Position numbers and translations under genes: made by a program. Of a stretch of 41,343 nucleotides of DNA, positions 304 through 19,767 are shown one piece after another. Source of the stretch: Anaerolineae bacterium (GTDB lineage Bacteria; Chloroflexota; Anaerolineae; UBA4142; SHND01); the NCBI GenBank assembly GCA_021463195.1, contig JAJTXZ010000043.1:1-41343 (forward strand), in the 5' to 3' direction. Numbering within the stretch: the first letter of the stretch is position 1; each line of letters opens with the position of its first letter. The notes beneath the pieces were generated by a model. The model was not told the DNA's origin. It worked only from the letters and a program-made list of their open reading frames with translations, and did no database searches.

Positions 304-2142
304 ATGCCGCGCAAAAGCGCAGACGCCAAGCCGACCAAACGGGATGCGCCCCAAAAGCGAAAATCGAAAACCGAATCAGTCGAATCCGTCGCGGCTGCGC
401 GTCTTTGGTCGAATCAGGAAATCGCCGCGCTGCTGAAACGCATCGGCGATATTCTCGCCATTCAGGGCGAAAACCGTTTCAAAATTATCGCGTATCAACG
501 CGCGGCGGACGTGATTGAACATTCGTCGCGCGGGGTGCAAGAACTTTGGGCGGGCGACGCGGCAAACTTGCGCGCGATTGACGGCGTGGGCGCAGCGATT
601 GCGGACAAGTTGGACGAATTGTTTCGCGTGGGGCAGATGAGTTATTACGAAAAAATTCGCGCGCAGCTGCCCGAAGGATTGGTGGACTTGCTTGCCATTC
701 CCGGCGTTGGACCCAAAACGGCGGCGAAATTTTGGAAAGAATTTCACATCACCACGCTCGACGGTTTGAAACAGGCGCTCGAAAATCCAGATAAAAATTT
801 GCCGGGCTTGGGCGCTAAAACGATTGACAATTTGAAACAGGGCTTTAATACGCTTGGCGCGCATACGACGCGGGTGCGGCTCGCCGTCGCGTTTTATTTC
901 GCTCAAGAATTGATGGATGGGTTAGAACGCGCGTGCGGCAAAGCGATTGAAAAAATTTCGCCCGCGGGCAGTTTGCGGCGGCTCCGCCCGACGATTGGCG
1001 ATATTGATTTACTCGTCGCGTCGCGGTCGCCGGAAAAAATTTTGGACGCGTTTGTGAAATTGTCGCAGGCGCGCGAGGTCTTGGCGCGCGGCGACACGAA
1101 AGCGTCCATCGTCGCGCACAATGGGATGCAAGCCGATTTGCGCGTGTTGGAGCCGCAACGCTGGGGCACCGCGCTGCAATATTTTACGGGCAGTCGCGAA
1201 CACAATATCCGTATCCGCGATCTAGCGTTAAAAAAGGGCTTGTCTTTGTCCGAGTGGAGTTACACGCGCGTAAAAAGCGGCAAAGAAATATTGTGCGCGG
1301 ACGAAGCGCAAGTATATGCCGCAATCGGCATGCCGTGGATACCGCCCGAACTGCGCGAGGCGTCCGGCGAAATCGAAGCCGCGCTGCAAAATAAATTGCC
1401 CAACCTGATTCAACTGAGCGATTTAAAGGGCGATTTGCAATGTCATTCGAAATGGAGCGACGGCAGCGCGACGATTCGAGAAATGGCGGAGGGGGCGCGC
1501 GCGCGCGGTTTGAAATATATCGCCATCACCGATCATTCGCAAGGGCTTGGCGTCGCGCGCGGCCTCGACCCAAAGCGCACGCGCGCGCAGTGGAAAGAGA
1601 TTGACGCGTTGAATGCCGAATACGGCGGCGCGTTTCGCGTGCTCAAAAGCGTCGAGGTCGAAATTCGCGCGGACGGCGCGCTCGATTTGCCCGACGATTT
1701 GCTCGCGGGTTACGATATTGTGTTGGCGACCACGCACAGCGCGTTGAATCAGCCGCGCGAAAAAATCACCGCGCGCGTTACGCGCGCGCTGCGCCATCCT
1801 TACGTAGATATTTTTGGACATCCCACGGGCCAACTCATCGGCGCGCGCGAACCGAGCGCGTTGGATTTGGAAGAGGTGTATCGCGTCGCGTTGGAAACCG
1901 GCACGCTGTTGGAAATTGACGGTTCGAGCGAACGTATGGATTTGAACGATGTAAACGCGCGACGCGCGATGGAGCGCGGCGTCAAATTAACGATTGACAG
2001 CGACGCGCACAATCCCGCTGGCTTTGACGATTTGTATTGGGGCATCGCGATGGCGCGGCGCGCGTGGCTGACCAAAAACGACGTATTGAATACGTTGGAA
2101 TGGGACGATTTGCGGAAACATTTGAAACGAAACAAAAAATAA
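304..2142 (+). CDS. polX: DNA polymerase X family protein with PHP domain
   Basis: Bacterial PolX, a gap-filling repair polymerase of 612 residues (family usually about 570-580). In order: a helix-hairpin-helix N-terminal region (GVGAAIADKL, then IPGVGPKTAAKFWKEF), the nucleotidyltransferase core with the GSLRR signature and the metal-binding DID of GDIDLL, and a C-terminal PHP domain (DLQCHSKWSDG, AITDHS, FGHPTG, IDSDAHN) that in characterised relatives carries 3'-5' exonuclease and AP-endonuclease activity. The first PHP histidine position is Gln, as I recall from some other bacterial PolX. The frame is open upstream to 175, but ATG 304 has a Shine-Dalgarno and the upstream residues look noncoding. 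The first about 55 residues are lysine-rich and probably disordered. Confidence 0.93.
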   Translation: MPRKSADAKPTKRDAPQKRKSKTESVESVAAARLWSNQEIAALLKRIGDILAIQGENRFKIIAYQRAADVIEHSSRGVQELWAGDAANLRAIDGVGAAIADKLDELFRVGQMSYYEKIRAQLPEGLVDLLAIPGVGPKTAAKFWKEFHITTLDGLKQALENPDKNLPGLGAKTIDNLKQGFNTLGAHTTRVRLAVAFYFAQELMDGLERACGKAIEKISPAGSLRRLRPTIGDIDLLVASRSPEKILDAFVKLSQAREVLARGDTKASIVAHNGMQADLRVLEPQRWGTALQYFTGSREHNIRIRDLALKKGLSLSEWSYTRVKSGKEILCADEAQVYAAIGMPWIPPELREASGEIEAALQNKLPNLIQLSDLKGDLQCHSKWSDGSATIREMAEGARARGLKYIAITDHSQGLGVARGLDPKRTRAQWKEIDALNAEYGGAFRVLKSVEVEIRADGALDLPDDLLAGYDIVLATTHSALNQPREKITARVTRALRHPYVDIFGHPTGQLIGAREPSALDLEEVYRVALETGTLLEIDGSSERMDLNDVNARRAMERGVKLTIDSDAHNPAGFDDLYWGIAMARRAWLTKNDVLNTLEWDDLRKHLKRNKK

Positions 2143-2215
2143 TTTCAGATTGCGGGTTTCAAATCTTGGGTTAAAGGATGGTCGCTTTTACCGCGAATTT
2201 GAAATCTGAAATCAT
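2141..2215. repeat. Interrupted inverted repeat between polX and bpsA-speD
   Basis: ATTTCAGATT, a short gcggg insertion and TTCAAAT on the left pair with ATTTGAAATCTGAAAT on the right. It is an intergenic hairpin directly after the polX stop and may terminate transcription, although no U-tract follows. Confidence 0.4.
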
Positions 2216-2224
2216 AAAGCGTAA

Positions 2225-3724
2225 ATGGAAACGACGGTTCTCTCGCGCGCCATCCGCGCGGGCAGCGACGATATTGCGCGCGTTATGCGCGCGTTACTCG
2301 AATATTCAGACGCATGGCAAGTGGCGGGCCACGCCAACGTGCCATTTGCCGATCTAGTCAATCTCTTGCAGCAACTGCGCGACCATGGAATGTTGGAATT
2401 TCACGGCTCGCAGTTGCTGCTTACGCGTCAGGGCGCGGAATGGGCGCGCGACATTCACGCGGCGCGGCGCGAATCGGCGACGTGTTCGGTGTGCGCGGGC
2501 AGCGGTTTTGAATTTGAACTGTTTCACGACGCGTATCATCAATTTATGCCGCTCGTGGCGCGGCGTCCGCCCGCCGAAGCGACCTATGACCAGGGCGCGT
2601 TGACGGCGGAATCGGTTTTTCGCCGACTCGCGTTCATGTACGCGCAAGGCGATGTCGCGGGCAAACGCATCTTGCTTTTGGGCGACGATGATTTGTTGAG
2701 CGTCGCGCTCGCGTTGACCGGACTGCCGCGCGAAATCGTCGTCGTCGAAATTGATCCGCGTTTGTGCGCGTTCATTCAACATCTCGCCGAAACGCGCCAG
2801 TTGAATGTGCGCGTGATTCAACACGACGCGCGCGAAAAATTGCCGGGCGATTTGCGCGCGCATTTTGATACGTTCGTCACCGACCCGTCGGAAACGATTC
2901 AAGGTCTTTTGTTGTTTGTCGAAAAAGGGTTGGCGATGCTCCAGCCCGGCGGCGCGCACGCGGGTTATTTTGGCGTCACTTTGATTGAAGCGTCGCTGCA
3001 CAAATGGAATTTGTGGGAACGTCATTTGCTCCAGAATCACGCGTTGGTTTTTACGCATATTAGCGAACCGTTCAGCGTGTACGCCAAAGGAAATGAAGCG
3101 GGCGGCGCGGTCAATCTCAATTTCGAGCCGATGCGCGAACCGCCGCGCGCGCCGTGGTATCGCGCTTCGTTTTTCCGCGTTGAAACGTTGAGCGAATTCG
3201 TGCCGCCGGTGGATTACGATTCGAATCCGCGCGATGAATTGTATCAGGATGCCGAGTCGTTGGAGGAAGCGTGGCTTGTGCTGGCGAACGGTCAGACGCA
3301 ATCGCCGATTCCGATTCCCAAAGATTTTTTGGACGCGTCCGCGCAGCGCGCCGCGCAGGCGCAGTACGGGTTGGGGCGGCACGTGATTGCGGAATTTTGG
3401 AATTGCGAAAACGCGCAATCGGAACAAGGGCTTGCGGAAGCGATTCAAGTCGCGGTGCGCGACGCGCGCGCGACGCTGCTTGATTTGAATGTGCGCCGTT
3501 TTTATCCGCAAGGATATTCCGCCATCGCGCTGCTCGCGGAATCGCATTTGAGTTTGCACGCGTGGCCCGAGCTCGGTTATGTCGCGCTCGACGTTTTCAC
3601 CTGCGGCGAAGCGGACCCGCAAAAGATTGTCCAAGCGCTTGAAGCGCATTTTAAACCGCGCGACACCGAATATATCAAAATTCCGCGCGGCAGAATGAGA
3701 ACGCACGTCGTGCCGGAAATGTAA
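2225..3724 (+). CDS. Fused branched-polyamine synthase (BpsA) and S-adenosylmethionine decarboxylase (SpeD)
   Basis: Two-domain protein of 499 residues. Residues 1-350 form a BpsA/DUF43 aminopropyltransferase: winged-helix-like N-terminus, CSVCAGSG (87-94), GDDD (153-156) and DPSET (220-224). BpsA adds aminopropyl groups from decarboxylated AdoMet to spermidine to make branched polyamines in thermophiles. Residues about 382-490 form a bacterial/archaeal class 1B SpeD: the self-cleavage site is Glu439-Ser440 (the serine becomes the pyruvoyl group), with His445 and Cys460 at exactly the spacing of Ser63/His68/Cys83 in the Thermotoga enzyme. One polypeptide would therefore make and use decarboxylated AdoMet. 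Self-cleavage would split the chain, leaving the BpsA domain on the beta chain. DPSET replaces the DPPET of the neighbouring paralogue, so the substrate may differ. No Shine-Dalgarno is evident. Confidence 0.88.
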   Translation: METTVLSRAIRAGSDDIARVMRALLEYSDAWQVAGHANVPFADLVNLLQQLRDHGMLEFHGSQLLLTRQGAEWARDIHAARRESATCSVCAGSGFEFELFHDAYHQFMPLVARRPPAEATYDQGALTAESVFRRLAFMYAQGDVAGKRILLLGDDDLLSVALALTGLPREIVVVEIDPRLCAFIQHLAETRQLNVRVIQHDAREKLPGDLRAHFDTFVTDPSETIQGLLLFVEKGLAMLQPGGAHAGYFGVTLIEASLHKWNLWERHLLQNHALVFTHISEPFSVYAKGNEAGGAVNLNFEPMREPPRAPWYRASFFRVETLSEFVPPVDYDSNPRDELYQDAESLEEAWLVLANGQTQSPIPIPKDFLDASAQRAAQAQYGLGRHVIAEFWNCENAQSEQGLAEAIQVAVRDARATLLDLNVRRFYPQGYSAIALLAESHLSLHAWPELGYVALDVFTCGEADPQKIVQALEAHFKPRDTEYIKIPRGRMRTHVVPEM

Positions 3725-3733
3725 TGCGCGTAT

Positions 3734-3862
3734 CGCAAATCGCAAATCGCAAATCGTCACTATTACATTATCGTACGATTGCGCGATCGCGCTGTACCGC
3801 CAATCTCTAATCTCTAATCTCTAATCTCTAATCTCCAATCTCCAATTCTCAATTTCTCATTC
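3734..3862. repeat. Tandem heptamer arrays upstream of bpsA
   Basis: Three CGCAAAT units (3734-3754), then nine 7-mers from 3800: CCAATCT, four CTAATCT, CCAATCT, CCAATTC, TCAATTT, CTCATTC (3800-3862). The array ends exactly where the ribosome-binding site of the next gene (acgagg) begins. The same heptamer family recurs at 14951, 16213, 16763, 17408 and 20758. Confidence 0.85.
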
Positions 3863-3872
3863 ACGAGGTTTT

Positions 3873-4937
3873 ATGTCTGAATATCAATCCTTCCAAACCA
3901 AATTGCCCGACCATATTACGCCAGGCGATGTGAAAAAAGTATTGAGCGCGATTCTTTCTGAAAACGCGCCGTGGGATTGGTTCACGCGCGCGCGCATTCC
4001 GTTCCCCTTTGCGGTCAATATCTTGCGCGAATTGCAAGCGCAGAAATATATCGAATTCGCGGGCGCCAAGACCGCGTTGACCGCGCGCGGCAAAACGTTG
4101 GCGCATGAATTGCGCGCGCGCGCCGAGCCGAACATGACTTGTCCGCGCTGCGCGGGCAGCGGAACCGATTGGGGCGCGCTGCAAAATATTTTTGACCGCT
4201 ATGCGGAAATTTACGCGGCGCGCCCGCGCGATGAAAATCCCGAATTTGACCAAGGCGCGATGACGCCCGAATCGTTGTTCCGCCGCCTCGCGTTGATGAT
4301 TCACTTGGGCGACTTGCAAGGCGCGCGCATCGTAGCTTTGGGCGATGATGATTTGGCGAGCGTAGCGATTGCGTTGACGGGCTTGGCGGAGAGCGTGACC
4401 GTGTTGGAAATTGACGCGCGCATCGGCGCGTATATTCGCGAAGTCGCGCAAAAAAATAATTTGCCCATCACGGCGCGACAGCAAGACTTGACCAAGCCGC
4501 TACCGCGCGAATTGTTGGGCGCGTTCGATACCTTTGTCTGCGATCCGCCCGAAACGGAACAAGGTTTATTGTTATTTGTCGAAAAGGGTTTGGCGTTATT
4601 GAAAAAGGGCGACGCGCGCGCGGGTTATTTTGGCGCGACGGTGATGGAGGCGTCATTGGCGAAATGGGCGCGCTGGCAAAAGCGTTTGTTGAATCATCAT
4701 GAAATCGCGTTCACGCACATTTTGCCGCCGTTCACCGAATACGCGCCGTGGCCCGATGAAAAACCGCTTGACGATATTCCGCCGCTGGCAACGCTCGCGG
4801 GCAGACCATGGTACCGCTTTGCGTTTTATCGTCTCGAAACGCTGCCCGCCTTTCAGCCCGGCGCGGATTTTCAAGCCGAACTTTCGCAAGTGTTTTATTT
4901 TGACGCCGAAGGATATTACGAGGCATGGAAGGCGTGA
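3873..4937 (+). CDS. bpsA: N4-bis(aminopropyl)spermidine synthase-like branched-polyamine synthase
   Basis: Stand-alone BpsA/DUF43 aminopropyltransferase of 354 residues, the usual family length. It has an N-terminal winged-helix-like region, CPRCAGSG (90-97), the GDDD motif (157-160) that in Thermococcus BpsA includes a catalytic aspartate, and DPPET (224-228). It is expected to transfer aminopropyl groups from decarboxylated AdoMet to the secondary amine of spermidine. It is clearly paralogous to the N-terminal part of the preceding fusion, with the same motif order and nearly identical core segments such as GLLLFVEKGLA. Start ATG 3873 follows GAGG at 4-nt spacing. Its donor could come from the SpeD domain encoded 150 bp upstream. 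Confidence 0.9.
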   Translation: MSEYQSFQTKLPDHITPGDVKKVLSAILSENAPWDWFTRARIPFPFAVNILRELQAQKYIEFAGAKTALTARGKTLAHELRARAEPNMTCPRCAGSGTDWGALQNIFDRYAEIYAARPRDENPEFDQGAMTPESLFRRLALMIHLGDLQGARIVALGDDDLASVAIALTGLAESVTVLEIDARIGAYIREVAQKNNLPITARQQDLTKPLPRELLGAFDTFVCDPPETEQGLLLFVEKGLALLKKGDARAGYFGATVMEASLAKWARWQKRLLNHHEIAFTHILPPFTEYAPWPDEKPLDDIPPLATLAGRPWYRFAFYRLETLPAFQPGADFQAELSQVFYFDAEGYYEAWKA

Positions 4938-14215: not shown

Positions 14216-14920
14216 ATGTCGGATACAACGCTCGTCGCGCAGTTCTTGGCGGTGGCGCTGTTTGCCGCCTGTTTTTATCATTCGTGGAACGTGGAAGGAC
14301 GCCGCCTCGCGCAGCAGTGGTTTTTTATCGGCTATATCTTTTTTTTGCTGCTGCAGAGTCTATTGGTGGTCACGGGCCAAATAGCGTTCGATGCCGCGTT
14401 TTTGACTATCGGCGCCGCGCCGTCGGTATGGGTGATGGTGTATCCCGCGCTCTTTTATCTTGCCTATACCATCGCCAAATTCTTGGCGGACGAGCAAAAT
14501 TTGCGCGCGATGTGTTATTTAATGTTTTTGCTCACGCCCGCGCTGCTGTTGCCGGTGGACGCGACGGGTTTGCGAATGGGCTGGTGGACCTATCCGTCGG
14601 AATCCATCGCGTTCCTCAATGGCGTGCCATTTTATCTGCCGTTTGCGTGGGGCGTTATCGGCGCGGCGTTCATGTACATGTTTGGACGCATTCGCAAGAT
14701 TCATTTTCGCGGCAGCGGCCAACTTTTTGCGTTGATGTTGGCGGCGCCGCTGCTCGCCGGTTTTTCAATTTTCCTGATTGCGCTTGTACAAGTAATTGTG
14801 GATACGATTGCGGCGTTTGCAGGCGAGACGTGGTTGTACGGCTTGCTGTTGGTGTTGTTCGGCGCCTTGCCGCTTGGCGTCTTGCGACCGCCGCGCGCGT
14901 CAAACGTCAAACGCAAATAA
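14216..14920 (+). CDS. Multipass membrane protein, possibly distantly CruF/DUF422-like
   Basis: 234 residues with about seven hydrophobic helices. The central segment (DATGLRMGWWTYPSE, then GVPFYLPFAWGVIG) resembles the layout of carotenoid-hydratase-like DUF422 proteins, which have D-x-x-A followed by a Trp/aromatic pair and a VPxxNF-W motif. The match is partial, so function is not assigned. It follows the 53-residue membrane gene by 2 bp and ends 64 bp before the TIGR00300 gene. The C-terminus is basic (RPPRASNVKRK). Confidence 0.7.
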   Translation: MSDTTLVAQFLAVALFAACFYHSWNVEGRRLAQQWFFIGYIFFLLLQSLLVVTGQIAFDAAFLTIGAAPSVWVMVYPALFYLAYTIAKFLADEQNLRAMCYLMFLLTPALLLPVDATGLRMGWWTYPSESIAFLNGVPFYLPFAWGVIGAAFMYMFGRIRKIHFRGSGQLFALMLAAPLLAGFSIFLIALVQVIVDTIAAFAGETWLYGLLLVLFGALPLGVLRPPRASNVKRK

Positions 14921-14950
14921 CGCAGCGCCGTCATCGTCAAACGTTAGTTT

Positions 14951-14978
14951 TCAATTCCCGATTTCCGATTCTCAATTT
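14951..14978. repeat. Four heptamer units before the TIGR00300 gene
   Basis: TCAATTC, CCGATTT, CCGATTC, TCAATTT (14951-14978), ending 6 nt before ATG 14985. Same heptamer family as elsewhere in the window; it fills the place of a ribosome-binding site. Confidence 0.65.
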
Positions 14979-14984
14979 TTAACC

Positions 14985-16211
14985 ATGAAACCAATATCCG
15001 AAGAAATCACCCTTGAAGGGCATATCATTGACTCGTGGAACTTGCCGCGCGCGTGGGATCGCATCATGGACAGCGGCGGCGAATTCGAGCTCATCGAGAT
15101 TCGCGTGGGCAAGCAAAAAGAGGAAACCAGTTTCGCGCACATGAAAGTGTTTACCGATACGGTCGCGGCGATGGCTTTGCTGTTAGAGGCGTTGACCGAA
15201 CTGGGCGCGGTGGTCGTTTCGCCCGACGATGTGAAAACCGAAGCCGCGCCGCGCGATGGCGCGCTGCCCGACGATTTTTATTCTTCCACGAATATGCCGA
15301 CCCAGGTGCGCCTCGACGGCCGCTGGGTCCAAGTCGCCAACACGGAAATGGATTTAGCCATCGTGATTGACCGCGCCGCCGGCGCCGCCGCGATGATTCC
15401 AATGACAGAGGTGAAACAGGGCGCTGCGGTGGTCGTCGGTCACAGCGGTATTCGCGTGCAGCCGCTGGCGCGTTCGCGCGACAAGGAAATTTTTTCTTTT
15501 ATGAACGCGGATGTTTCGAGCGAGCGTCCGAAACGTTTGGCGATTTCGCAAATCGCGCGCGAGATGCAGGAAACCAAAGCGCGCGGCGGCAAAATTTTAT
15601 TTGTCGCGGGACCCGCGATTGTTCACAGCGGCGCGGCGCCAGCATTGGCAAAGTTGATTCGCAACGGCTATGTAAATGTTTTGTTTGGCGGCAACGCGAT
15701 CGCGGTTCACGATTGCGAAGCGGCGATTTTTGGCACCTCGCTCGGCGTCGCGCTCACCACCGGACAGCCGGTCGAGGGCGGGCATCGCCATCACATGCGC
15801 GCCATCAATCGCATTCGCCGCGCGGGTAGTTTGCGCGAGGCGGTGGCGCAGGGGATTTTGACCAGCGGCATCATGTACGAAGCGGTGCGCGCGAATATCG
15901 AAATGGTTCTCGCGGGTTCGGTGCGCGATGATGGTCCTTTGCCCGATGTTGTTACGGACATGATGGAGGTCCAGAAAAAAATGCGCGCGGCAGTGCAAGG
16001 CGTCGAACTCGCGCTGATGGTTTCGACGATGCTGCATTCGATCGCCACCGGCAACATGCTGCCCGCGTGGGTGAAAACGGTCGCCGTTGATATCAATCCC
16101 GCTGTCGTCACAAAACTCGCGGACAGAGGAACGTTTCAAGCGGTGGGCTTGGTGACGGATGCGGAGTTGTTTTTGAGGGAATTGGCGGAAGAATTAGAGA
16201 TTAAGGAGTAG
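14985..16211 (+). CDS. TIGR00300/LOR-SDH family protein, probable archaeal-type ornithine cyclodeaminase
   Basis: 408 residues. The N-terminal domain (EEITLEGHIIDSWNLPRAWDRIMDSGG...) is the LOR/SDH conserved domain, and the C-terminal Rossmann domain carries GGKILFVAGPAIVHSGAAPALAKLI and FGGNAIAVHDCEAAIFGTSLG. From memory, the methanogen homologue and the C-terminal part of cyanobacterial AgrE/ArgZ convert ornithine to proline and ammonia using bound NAD. If that holds here, the enzyme competes for ornithine with polyamine synthesis. The older 'lysine-ketoglutarate reductase/saccharopine dehydrogenase' label describes domain origin, not activity. ATG 14985 gives the usual N-terminus. No Shine-Dalgarno, since the upstream sequence is a heptamer array. 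Confidence 0.85.
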   Translation: MKPISEEITLEGHIIDSWNLPRAWDRIMDSGGEFELIEIRVGKQKEETSFAHMKVFTDTVAAMALLLEALTELGAVVVSPDDVKTEAAPRDGALPDDFYSSTNMPTQVRLDGRWVQVANTEMDLAIVIDRAAGAAAMIPMTEVKQGAAVVVGHSGIRVQPLARSRDKEIFSFMNADVSSERPKRLAISQIAREMQETKARGGKILFVAGPAIVHSGAAPALAKLIRNGYVNVLFGGNAIAVHDCEAAIFGTSLGVALTTGQPVEGGHRHHMRAINRIRRAGSLREAVAQGILTSGIMYEAVRANIEMVLAGSVRDDGPLPDVVTDMMEVQKKMRAAVQGVELALMVSTMLHSIATGNMLPAWVKTVAVDINPAVVTKLADRGTFQAVGLVTDAELFLRELAEELEIKE

Positions 16212-17856: not shown

Positions 17857-19767
17857 ATGGACTATTTTGATTTTGATTTACACCTTTCCACTGCCGCGAA
17901 CGGCTATCGCGCGCGCGCGACCAACGCGCAAGGCGCGAATGTGAGCGCGGATTTTGCTCTGCCGTTCAGCGATCAGGATATTGAGATTCTGATGCTGCGA
18001 GTCGGACGCGCGCGCAAAAACCGCGCGCTGGGACGCGGTTCGGCGGACATGCAAGCCGCGTTGAATTTTGGCGCGAAATTATTCGATACTGTTTTCGCGG
18101 GCGAAGTTTTGGCGTTGTGGCGTAGCAGTTTGCACAGCATTCCATTCGGGCAGGGTTTGCGCGTGCGCGTTTTTTTGACGGATACGCCCGACTTGCTTGA
18201 TCTGCCGTGGGAGTTTTTGTACGACAAGCAGCTCAATCGTTTTGTCGCTATGTCCAACAAAACGCCGCTCGTGCGCTATCCCGCGCTGCCCACGCCCGTG
18301 CGTCCGTTCGCGCTTCAACTGCCGCTGCGAATTTTGGCAATGATTTCCGATCCCATTGACGCGGTGACATTGGACGCGGAACTCGAATGGCGCAATTTGC
18401 AAACGGCATTGAGCGCTTTGCAGGCGCGCGGCTTGGTGATTTTGGAACGGCTTGACACGCCCACGTATTCGGCATTACAGCGCAAACTACGAAACGAATA
18501 TCATGTATTTCATTTCGTCGGTCACGGCGGTTTGTCCGAACGCACGAACGAAGGCGTTTTGGTTTTTACGGATGAGCAGGGCAGGGCGCAAGATGTGGGC
18601 GCATTAAAACTCGCGCATCTGTTTGGCGATTGTGATTCGCTGCGGCTTGTGTTGCTCAATGCGTGTGAAGGCGCGCGCAGCACACGTCAAGACCCATTCG
18701 CGAGCGTCGCCGCGAGTTTGGTGCAGCGCGAAATTCCTGCCGTCGTCGCCATGCAATTTGAAATCAGCGATCAAGCCGCGCTCCAATTTTCGAACGAGTT
18801 TTATACCACCCTCGCCGAAGGGAATGCTGTAGATACCGCCATGTCCGAAGCGCGCAAAGCGATTTGGGGTGTGAACGATTTGGAATGGGGTACGCCCGTC
18901 CTTTACATGCGCGCGCCCGACGGCGTGATTTTTGATTTGACACCACAGACAGACCTTTCGGGTTTTCGGAAACCCGAAAGGTCTCACGCACCCGAACCAA
19001 AAATCGTCGCGCCTCCGCCGCCCAAAATCAAAATCCCATCACGCCTCACCAACAAAGCGGGACAAGAAATGATTCTCATTCCGGCGGGTGAGTTTTTGAT
19101 GGGGACGACAGATGCCGAAGCGAAGCGAATCATTCAACAATATGGCAAAGACTGGGAAGCATACGTCCGATGGGAACAACCACAGCACACGGTGTATCTC
19201 GACACGTTTTACATTTCGCGTTATCCGGTGACCAACGCGGAATATAAAAAATTCAAAGCGGATTGGGAAATTCCGAACGGCAAAGAAAAGCATCCTGTTG
19301 TGAACGTGAGTTGGAATGACGCGGCGGCGTATTGTGAATGGGCAGGTGGACGTTTGCCGACGGAAGCGGAGTGGGAAAAAGCGGCGAGTTGGGATGACGC
19401 GAAAAAAATTAAACGCATTTATCCTTGGGAAGGCGCGTTTGATAAAAATAAATGCAATACGAGTGAATCGGGCATCCGCGACACAACGCCCGTTGGAAAA
19501 TATTCACCAATGGGCGATAGTTTTTACGGCGTTGGCGACATGGCGGGAAATGTATGGGAATGGTGCGCGGATTGGTACGATGAAAATTATTATCAAAATT
19601 CTCCGCGCGAAAATCCGCGCAATGACACTCCGGGACAATACCGCGTGCTGCGCGGCGCCGCGTTCTTTGATGCTGCGGTCAATGCCCGCTGTGCGTTTCG
19701 CGTCGGGTTCTTTCCCGGCGATCGCTTCGTCCTTATCGGTTTTCGTGTGGCTGTGCCTCCCGCTTGA
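17857..19767 (+). CDS. CHAT-domain protease fused to SUMF1/FGE-like domain
   Basis: 636 residues. Residues 1-355 hold an N-terminal beta-rich region and a CHAT caspase-like peptidase with the catalytic dyad His223 (FHFVGHGG) and Cys270 (LVLLNACEGA). Residues about 398-636 form a formylglycine-generating-enzyme/SUMF1-like C-type-lectin fold: MILIPAGEFLMG, YPVTNAEY, NVSWNDAAAYCEWAGGRLPTEAEWEKAA, AGNVWEWCADWY, VLRGAA and a terminal GFRV. Only one cysteine (Cys612) is present near the catalytic-Cys region, so oxidase activity is doubtful and a binding or recognition role is likelier. Both domains recur in bacterial conflict and signalling proteins. The linker at residues 365-376 is encoded by a perfect 34-bp REP hairpin (18951-18984), followed by a Pro/Lys-rich stretch. 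No substrate or partner gene is adjacent. Confidence 0.9.
   Translation: MDYFDFDLHLSTAANGYRARATNAQGANVSADFALPFSDQDIEILMLRVGRARKNRALGRGSADMQAALNFGAKLFDTVFAGEVLALWRSSLHSIPFGQGLRVRVFLTDTPDLLDLPWEFLYDKQLNRFVAMSNKTPLVRYPALPTPVRPFALQLPLRILAMISDPIDAVTLDAELEWRNLQTALSALQARGLVILERLDTPTYSALQRKLRNEYHVFHFVGHGGLSERTNEGVLVFTDEQGRAQDVGALKLAHLFGDCDSLRLVLLNACEGARSTRQDPFASVAASLVQREIPAVVAMQFEISDQAALQFSNEFYTTLAEGNAVDTAMSEARKAIWGVNDLEWGTPVLYMRAPDGVIFDLTPQTDLSGFRKPERSHAPEPKIVAPPPPKIKIPSRLTNKAGQEMILIPAGEFLMGTTDAEAKRIIQQYGKDWEAYVRWEQPQHTVYLDTFYISRYPVTNAEYKKFKADWEIPNGKEKHPVVNVSWNDAAAYCEWAGGRLPTEAEWEKAASWDDAKKIKRIYPWEGAFDKNKCNTSESGIRDTTPVGKYSPMGDSFYGVGDMAGNVWEWCADWYDENYYQNSPRENPRNDTPGQYRVLRGAAFFDAAVNARCAFRVGFFPGDRFVLIGFRVAVPPA
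18951..18984. repeat. REP palindrome inside the CHAT-SUMF1 gene
   Basis: AGACCTTTCGGGTTT, loop tcgg, AAACCCGAAAGGTCT: perfect 15-bp arms. It is read in frame and encodes residues 365-376 (TDLSGFRKPERS) between the two domains. Related palindromes occur at 20046, 34709 and 38282. Confidence 0.92.

Follow-up and report, generated by a model that had tools for sequence, protein, structure and literature searches.

A gene fusion of the branched-polyamine synthase BpsA with a class 1b SpeD in Anaerolineae: a probable bifunctional enzyme of polyamine synthesis

Introduction

What is the role of a single protein that carries both N4-bis(aminopropyl)spermidine synthase (BpsA, EC 2.5.1.128) and a class 1b S-adenosylmethionine (AdoMet) decarboxylase (SpeD)? 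The question is raised by a gene located on a 41,343-nucleotide stretch of DNA from an Anaerolineae bacterium (contig JAJTXZ010000043.1), the whole of which is referred to here as the window. SpeD makes decarboxylated AdoMet (dcAdoMet), and BpsA consumes it. In the enzyme of T. kodakarensis (Tk-BpsA), acidic residues of a flexible C-terminal tail carry the aminopropyl group in a two-step relay, and the acidic tail sets substrate choice in characterised BpsA (PMC12979288). In the fusion described here, this tail leads straight into a linker to SpeD.

One open frame encodes both enzymes

The fusion gene (2225-3724, + strand) is a single open frame of 499 amino acids with an ATG start and zero internal stops, and it is kept in 16 aligned genomes. 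Pfam BpsA_C (PF01861) matches residues 102-345 (E 2e-65; 220.8 bits against a curated cut-off of 27), and AdoMet_dc (PF02675) matches residues 386-489, where the whole 107-position profile is covered (E 3e-30). The TIGR03330 equivalog for class 1b SpeD scores 107.4 bits against a cut-off of 75.65. The nearest solved structures by sequence are T. kodakarensis BpsA for the first half (5xnc, E 7e-58) and T. maritima SpeD for the second (1tlu and 1vr7, E 7e-22). Together these matches confirm the initial annotation, which had read BpsA and a complete SpeD in one chain at this position. The Pfam search found no PF01564 (Spermine_synth) match in the protein and one AdoMet_dc match only, without any second SpeD-type domain.

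The BpsA N-terminal part (residues 1-101; 2225-2527, +) includes a C87-x2-C90 pair, both cysteines of which are invariant in the 16 aligned fusions; the alignment to 5xnc starts at query residue 17. The catalytic domain (residues 102-345; 2528-3259, +) runs into the acidic C-terminal tail of BpsA (residues 337-351, DELYQDAESLEEAWL; 3233-3277, +), which alignment to Tk-BpsA identifies as the equivalent of the aminopropyl-carrier cluster. A Pro/Ala/Gln/Ser-rich interdomain linker (residues 346-381; 3260-3367, +) then leads to the class 1b SpeD domain (residues 382-499; 3368-3721, +). The predicted structure has two confident domains, with residues 340-381 disordered between them (pLDDT below 50). 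Its SpeD domain superposes on 1tlu with an rmsd of 1.4 Å over 112 columns and a TM score of 0.87 (Foldseek). The BpsA sub-domains, as placed in the model, agree poorly with 5xnc as a whole (TM 0.63 by target, rmsd about 18 Å), so the model is unsuitable for domain placement.

A second, unfused bpsA gene of 354 amino acids (3873-4937, +; PF01861 E 3e-57) lies directly downstream of the fusion. The tandem repeats between the two genes (3732-3756 and 3802-3846, the latter made of six copies of the 7-base repeat AATCTCT) yielded no lead. Elsewhere in the window, another arginine/ornithine-linked gene combines a LOR/SDH domain with an ArgZ-like C-terminal region (14796-16211; Saccharop_dh_N and ArgZ-like_C), and a 636-aa protein combines a CHAT protease with an FGE-sulfatase domain in one fused chain (17857-19767).

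Both active sites are complete, and the carrier tail is reduced in the window genus

A 2026 review names GDDD 157-160, Asp225, Glu259, Tyr290 and Tyr316 as key residues of BpsA (PMC12979288). In the 5xnc alignment, G157-D160, D225, E259, Y290 and Y316 of Tk-BpsA correspond to G153-D156 (GDDD), D220, E255, Y286 and Y312 of the fusion; all eight residues checked are identical to those of Tk-BpsA and invariant across the 16 fusion proteins. Ser222 of the fusion sits where Tk-BpsA has Pro227. The carrier cluster is more variable. The Tk-BpsA tail pattern E-x-x-D-D-E-E, whose residue numbers in the review differ by two from those of the 5xnc chain while the spacing is unambiguous, aligns with E338-Q341-D342-A343-E344, of which E338 and D342 are invariant in the aligned fusions. 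The cluster reads E-Q-D-A-E in the window genome and E-E-D-E-D in Thermoflexus; three of the five carrier positions are acidic in the genus of the window, four in one other fusion-bearing genome (G042), and all five in Thermoflexus and Tk-BpsA.

In the SpeD half, Ser63, His68 and Cys83 of T. maritima align with Ser440, His445 and Cys460, so that the match of spacing to the Thermotoga enzyme asserted in the initial annotation is exact. The equivalents of T. maritima Phe49, Ser55, Glu62, Trp70, Pro71 and Glu72 are also all kept, and this complete residue set supports the further claim that the domain is catalytically intact and predicted to self-process. The conserved set makes the fused SpeD look like an AdoMet decarboxylase (AdoMetDC) rather than an ornithine decarboxylase (ODC).

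The chain is expected to be cut between Glu439 and Ser440 (codons gaa tcg; 3539-3544, +), a site that maps to T. maritima Glu62|Ser63. The cut would give a beta chain of residues 1-439 and an alpha chain of residues 440-499, with computed masses of 49.0 and 6.9 kDa, and BpsA would stay on the beta chain, as had been proposed. The accompanying claim that self-processing physically splits the fusion was overstated, since the alpha and beta chains of class 1b SpeD are parts of one fold. Even after a nick before Ser440, BpsA should stay with the decarboxylase, since it is bonded covalently to the beta chain and that chain in turn holds the alpha chain.

Distribution and origin of the fusion

The fusion is present in all six genomes of the window genus, which is the whole family among the genomes examined. 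The proteins of the five relatives are 78-85% identical to that of the window, and an unfused bpsA adjoins the fusion in each of the six genomes, with two such copies in one of them (G005), which suggests a division of labour among BpsA paralogues. In the other 14 genomes of the order, no BpsA match was found, and weak SpeD-like matches occurred in three only. Separately, the sister family f2 encodes orphan SpeD-like proteins of about 135-145 aa (L022, L023 and L024, in G013, G018 and G017), in which the cleavage serine and/or the catalytic cysteine are missing (KQAHATVHTW, REGHAALHTQ) and which may represent a degraded SpeD fold retained for another role.

Among 396 genomes drawn from the class, the fusion was also found in nine genomes of a second family (f12) and in one of a third (f25), at 45-47% identity to the window fusion. 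The f12 carriers include the hot-spring bacterium Thermoflexus (Ca. T. japonica, tengchongensis and sinensis). An assembly error or frameshift that joined two genes is ruled out, because the fusion recurs in genomes of all three families: six of the window genus, each assembled separately, nine of f12, including one in which the gene lies on a single contig of 3.3 Mb, and one of f25; the chance that the fusion is such an artefact is negligible. Pairwise comparisons gave dN/dS values of about 0.04-0.18 in the catalytic part of BpsA and 0.04-0.14 in SpeD, and these low values in both halves place both domains under purifying selection.

In the BpsA tree, the Anaerolineae fusions and the second bpsA of the window genus form one group of 23 sequences (support 95/92), which stands apart from the unfused BpsA of the class and of Bipolaricaulota. 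In the SpeD tree, all 14 distinct fused domains cluster, together with one unstable long-branch intruder, at a support of 38/0. A single fusion event in Anaerolineae is the simplest reading, and one origin appears likely. Its ancestral state is probably visible in another genome of the class (G105), where a 4.1-kb contig carries bpsA-pdaD-speD-speE-speB as one unfused gene run (L131, 247-3921); here pdaD encodes a pyruvoyl arginine decarboxylase (PF01862), and speB is an agmatinase-family gene. Bipolaricaulota have unfused bpsA and speD in tandem with bpsA first, and in one archaeon speD lies upstream of bpsA and overlaps it.

A fusion of the same two domains was also found elsewhere. MT839461.1 (L109), an UNVERIFIED 'Bacteriophage sp.' contig of 4.3 kb from human faeces that carries no annotation, encodes a 555-aa protein (1606-3273) in which BpsA_C (E 2e-33) and AdoMet_dc (E 7e-42) flank a zinc-ribbon-like CxxC...CxxC insert. 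In the BpsA tree it groups with unfused genes of the Chloroflexota family f112 (G535, G660); in G535, bpsA ends in a weak zinc-ribbon match and speD begins a few bases downstream. The MT839461.1 fusion arose independently of that of Anaerolineae, with the same domain order. Because no phage genes were seen on the contig, it is probably (gut) bacterial DNA. A phage origin of the fusion was rejected, the sole phage-record match with both domains being MT839461.1. One scan of viral contigs for the fusion returned lone SpeD only, and the plasmid records among the matches listed contained single-domain matches only, none with BpsA and SpeD together. Other fusion types were also seen: SpeD-SpeE in Ca. 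Magasanikbacteria (L089, 6001-7077, 359-aa frame) and in a Cytophagales bacterium (L101, 5977-7224, 416-aa frame), and SpeD matches within frames of about 530-620 aa in genomes of the Chloroflexota family f94, possibly a further type.

Genome context and habitat

Of the 12 fusion-bearing genomes checked, 11 have no AdoMet_dc match besides the fused SpeD; the exception is G005, with a second match on a 3.2-kb contig. Free SpeE was found in G000 (above the PRK00811 cut-off), G002, G004, G005 and five Thermoflexus genomes; the same search of the fusion genomes gave no comparable match in G001, G003 and G042. Agmatinase-family genes occur in all fusion genomes searched except G042, and no arginine decarboxylase of the PdaD type was found in the fusion genomes. 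As sole AdoMetDC, the fused SpeD must also supply dcAdoMet to other enzymes: to the adjoining second BpsA in the window genus, and to SpeE in most genomes. The proposal that the fusion couples production of dcAdoMet to its use thus holds in so far as both domains are joined in one chain, but the coupling is not exclusive. Exclusive substrate channelling as the sole use is ruled out, and partial local supply of dcAdoMet is possible.

According to the review of 2026, bpsA is restricted to thermophiles (PMC12979288), and a cultured member of Thermoflexus grows at 67.5-75 °C (PMC8129789). The G+C content of 16S rRNA is 58.0% in one member of the window genus against 64.8% in Thermoflexus, and one record of the genus (L049) is a groundwater genome. 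The 16S composition and the groundwater source suggest that the window genus may not be thermophilic. An estimate of growth temperature from amino-acid composition (IVYWREL) was discarded, as it put the control, Thermoflexus, at 36 °C.

Proposed function and alternative explanations

We consider it probable (about 0.8) that the protein is a bifunctional polyamine enzyme, in which SpeD makes dcAdoMet, BpsA uses it for branched polyamines, and the halves stay joined. The C-terminal half would cut its own chain between Glu439 and Ser440, Ser440 would become the pyruvoyl group, and SpeD would then decarboxylate AdoMet as the AdoMet decarboxylase of the cell. The N-terminal half would load the aminopropyl group from dcAdoMet onto its acidic C-terminal tail and pass it to spermidine, giving branched polyamines. 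After processing, BpsA would remain covalently bound to the SpeD beta chain, in one fold with the alpha chain. Part of the dcAdoMet would have to leave the fusion, for the second BpsA and for the separate SpeE, which makes the acceptor spermidine. The benefit probably lies in joint expression, a fixed stoichiometry and a local supply of dcAdoMet, and not in sealed channelling. What the sequences show directly is domain architecture, residue identity, conservation, selection and genome context, whereas self-processing, the two activities, branching of the product and the advantage of fusion are inferred. The domain matches above curated cut-offs, the invariant catalytic residues, the low dN/dS, the spread over three family-level groups with one likely origin, the place of the fused SpeD as sole AdoMetDC in most of the genomes checked, the predicted two-domain structure and the unfused gene run of G105 count for a bifunctional enzyme, as do, by analogy, the SpeD-aminopropyltransferase fusions in which both halves are active in E. 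coli (PMC11107197; PMC12803844). Three points count against it: BpsA needs a free tail, but in the fusion the tail is attached to another domain; the acidic carrier cluster is reduced in the window genus; and there are hints that this genus is not thermophilic, whereas the literature associates branched polyamines with thermophiles, so that the product may differ.

How much the physical joining contributes is the point on which the closest alternative turns. The fusion may serve supply and co-regulation alone, with both halves active but independent, and be a by-product of joined operon neighbours without kinetic gain; we rate this somewhat below an even chance. The two genes are neighbours in many unfused genomes (Bipolaricaulota, G105, one archaeon), and the fused SpeD must in any case feed free SpeE and the second BpsA. 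However, the pair has been fused twice independently, each time with BpsA first, and the fusion has been retained down to about 47% identity, both of which hint at a benefit of joining. At the opposite extreme, the acidic tail built into the tether between SpeD and BpsA might act as a swinging arm that captures the dcAdoMet made by SpeD and hands it on to spermidine with little exchange with the cellular pool, an idea that we regard as improbable.

A different acceptor or product of the BpsA half, such as a linear long-chain amine or aminopropylated agmatine in place of branched polyamines, is unlikely. The window genus is apparently not from a hot environment, the tail on which substrate choice depends in characterised BpsA (PMC12979288) is reduced, Ser222 replaces the Pro227 of Tk-BpsA, and SpeE was not found in G001, G003 and G042. 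Yet the residues to which spermidine activation is ascribed (Asp225, Glu259, Tyr290 and Tyr316 of Tk-BpsA) are all present, and in the thermophile Thermoflexus the fusion carries a tail with all five positions acidic. It is very improbable that the SpeD domain is a neofunctionalised pyruvoyl-dependent ornithine or arginine decarboxylase (ADC). Such homologues of SpeD are widespread (PMC10407285), and the lack of a PdaD-type match in the fusion genomes would fit this reading. The fused SpeD nevertheless exceeds the TIGR03330 cut-off for AdoMetDC, keeps the equivalents of Trp70, Pro71 and Glu72 together with the Glu before the cleavage serine, and is the only SpeD homologue of a genome whose SpeE and BpsA need dcAdoMet. 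AdoMetDC sequences share a conserved Pro that the ADC group does not conserve (PMC10407285); both prolines that are candidates for this position are kept in the fusion, as are the Trp70 and Glu72 equivalents.

A bifunctional polyamine enzyme is thus the reading that we prefer, and it has several consequences. The only step found in these bacteria that makes dcAdoMet is linked by fusion to branched-polyamine synthesis, and the independent fusion of the same pair on two occasions suggests a recurrent advantage. The gene occurs in a genus with a groundwater record, which casts doubt on a restriction of bpsA to thermophiles, and its presence in Thermoflexus, with a cultured member, makes its function directly testable. 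Branched polyamines are used for the capture of nucleic acids, and if the fusion has the predicted activities, a single gene would suffice to make them from AdoMet and spermidine.

Comparison with known systems

The literature searched, from which subscription journals were mostly absent, contains no mention of a BpsA-SpeD fusion. The remark in the initial annotation that this pairing had not been met before therefore stands for the papers searched, but the fusion is not confined to the window genome, as it occurs in three family-level groups and, independently, once more. Its BpsA half matches free BpsA over the whole length and shares the catalytic residues of that enzyme (Tk-BpsA, 5xnc; Tt-BpsA, 6j27). 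It differs in that the acidic carrier tail leads into SpeD instead of ending the protein, that the tail is less acidic in the window genus, and that a second bpsA adjoins the gene. The SpeD half has the processing and catalytic residues, spacing and fold of class 1b SpeD (T. maritima TM0655, 1tlu), which is a free protein of 110-130 aa, whereas here SpeD is a C-terminal domain behind about 381 residues.

In SpeD-SpeE fusions, known from Ca. Pelagibacter and others, a class 1b SpeD is likewise joined to an enzyme that uses dcAdoMet, and a SpeD-aminopropyltransferase fusion is the proposed ancestor of the spermine synthase of animals (PMC12803844). In those proteins, however, SpeD is N-terminal and its partner has the SpeE fold, whereas the present fusion has SpeD at the C-terminus and BpsA (PF01861) as partner. 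The SpeD-SpeDC fusions of Desulfotignum, Omnitrophica and Lentisphaerota resemble the present one in that SpeD self-processes within a longer chain (PMC10407285), but their partner is an ornithine decarboxylase and not an aminopropyltransferase. SpeD-SpeE and SpeD-SpeDC fusions are thus the nearest precedents, and what is new here is the partner family and the domain order.
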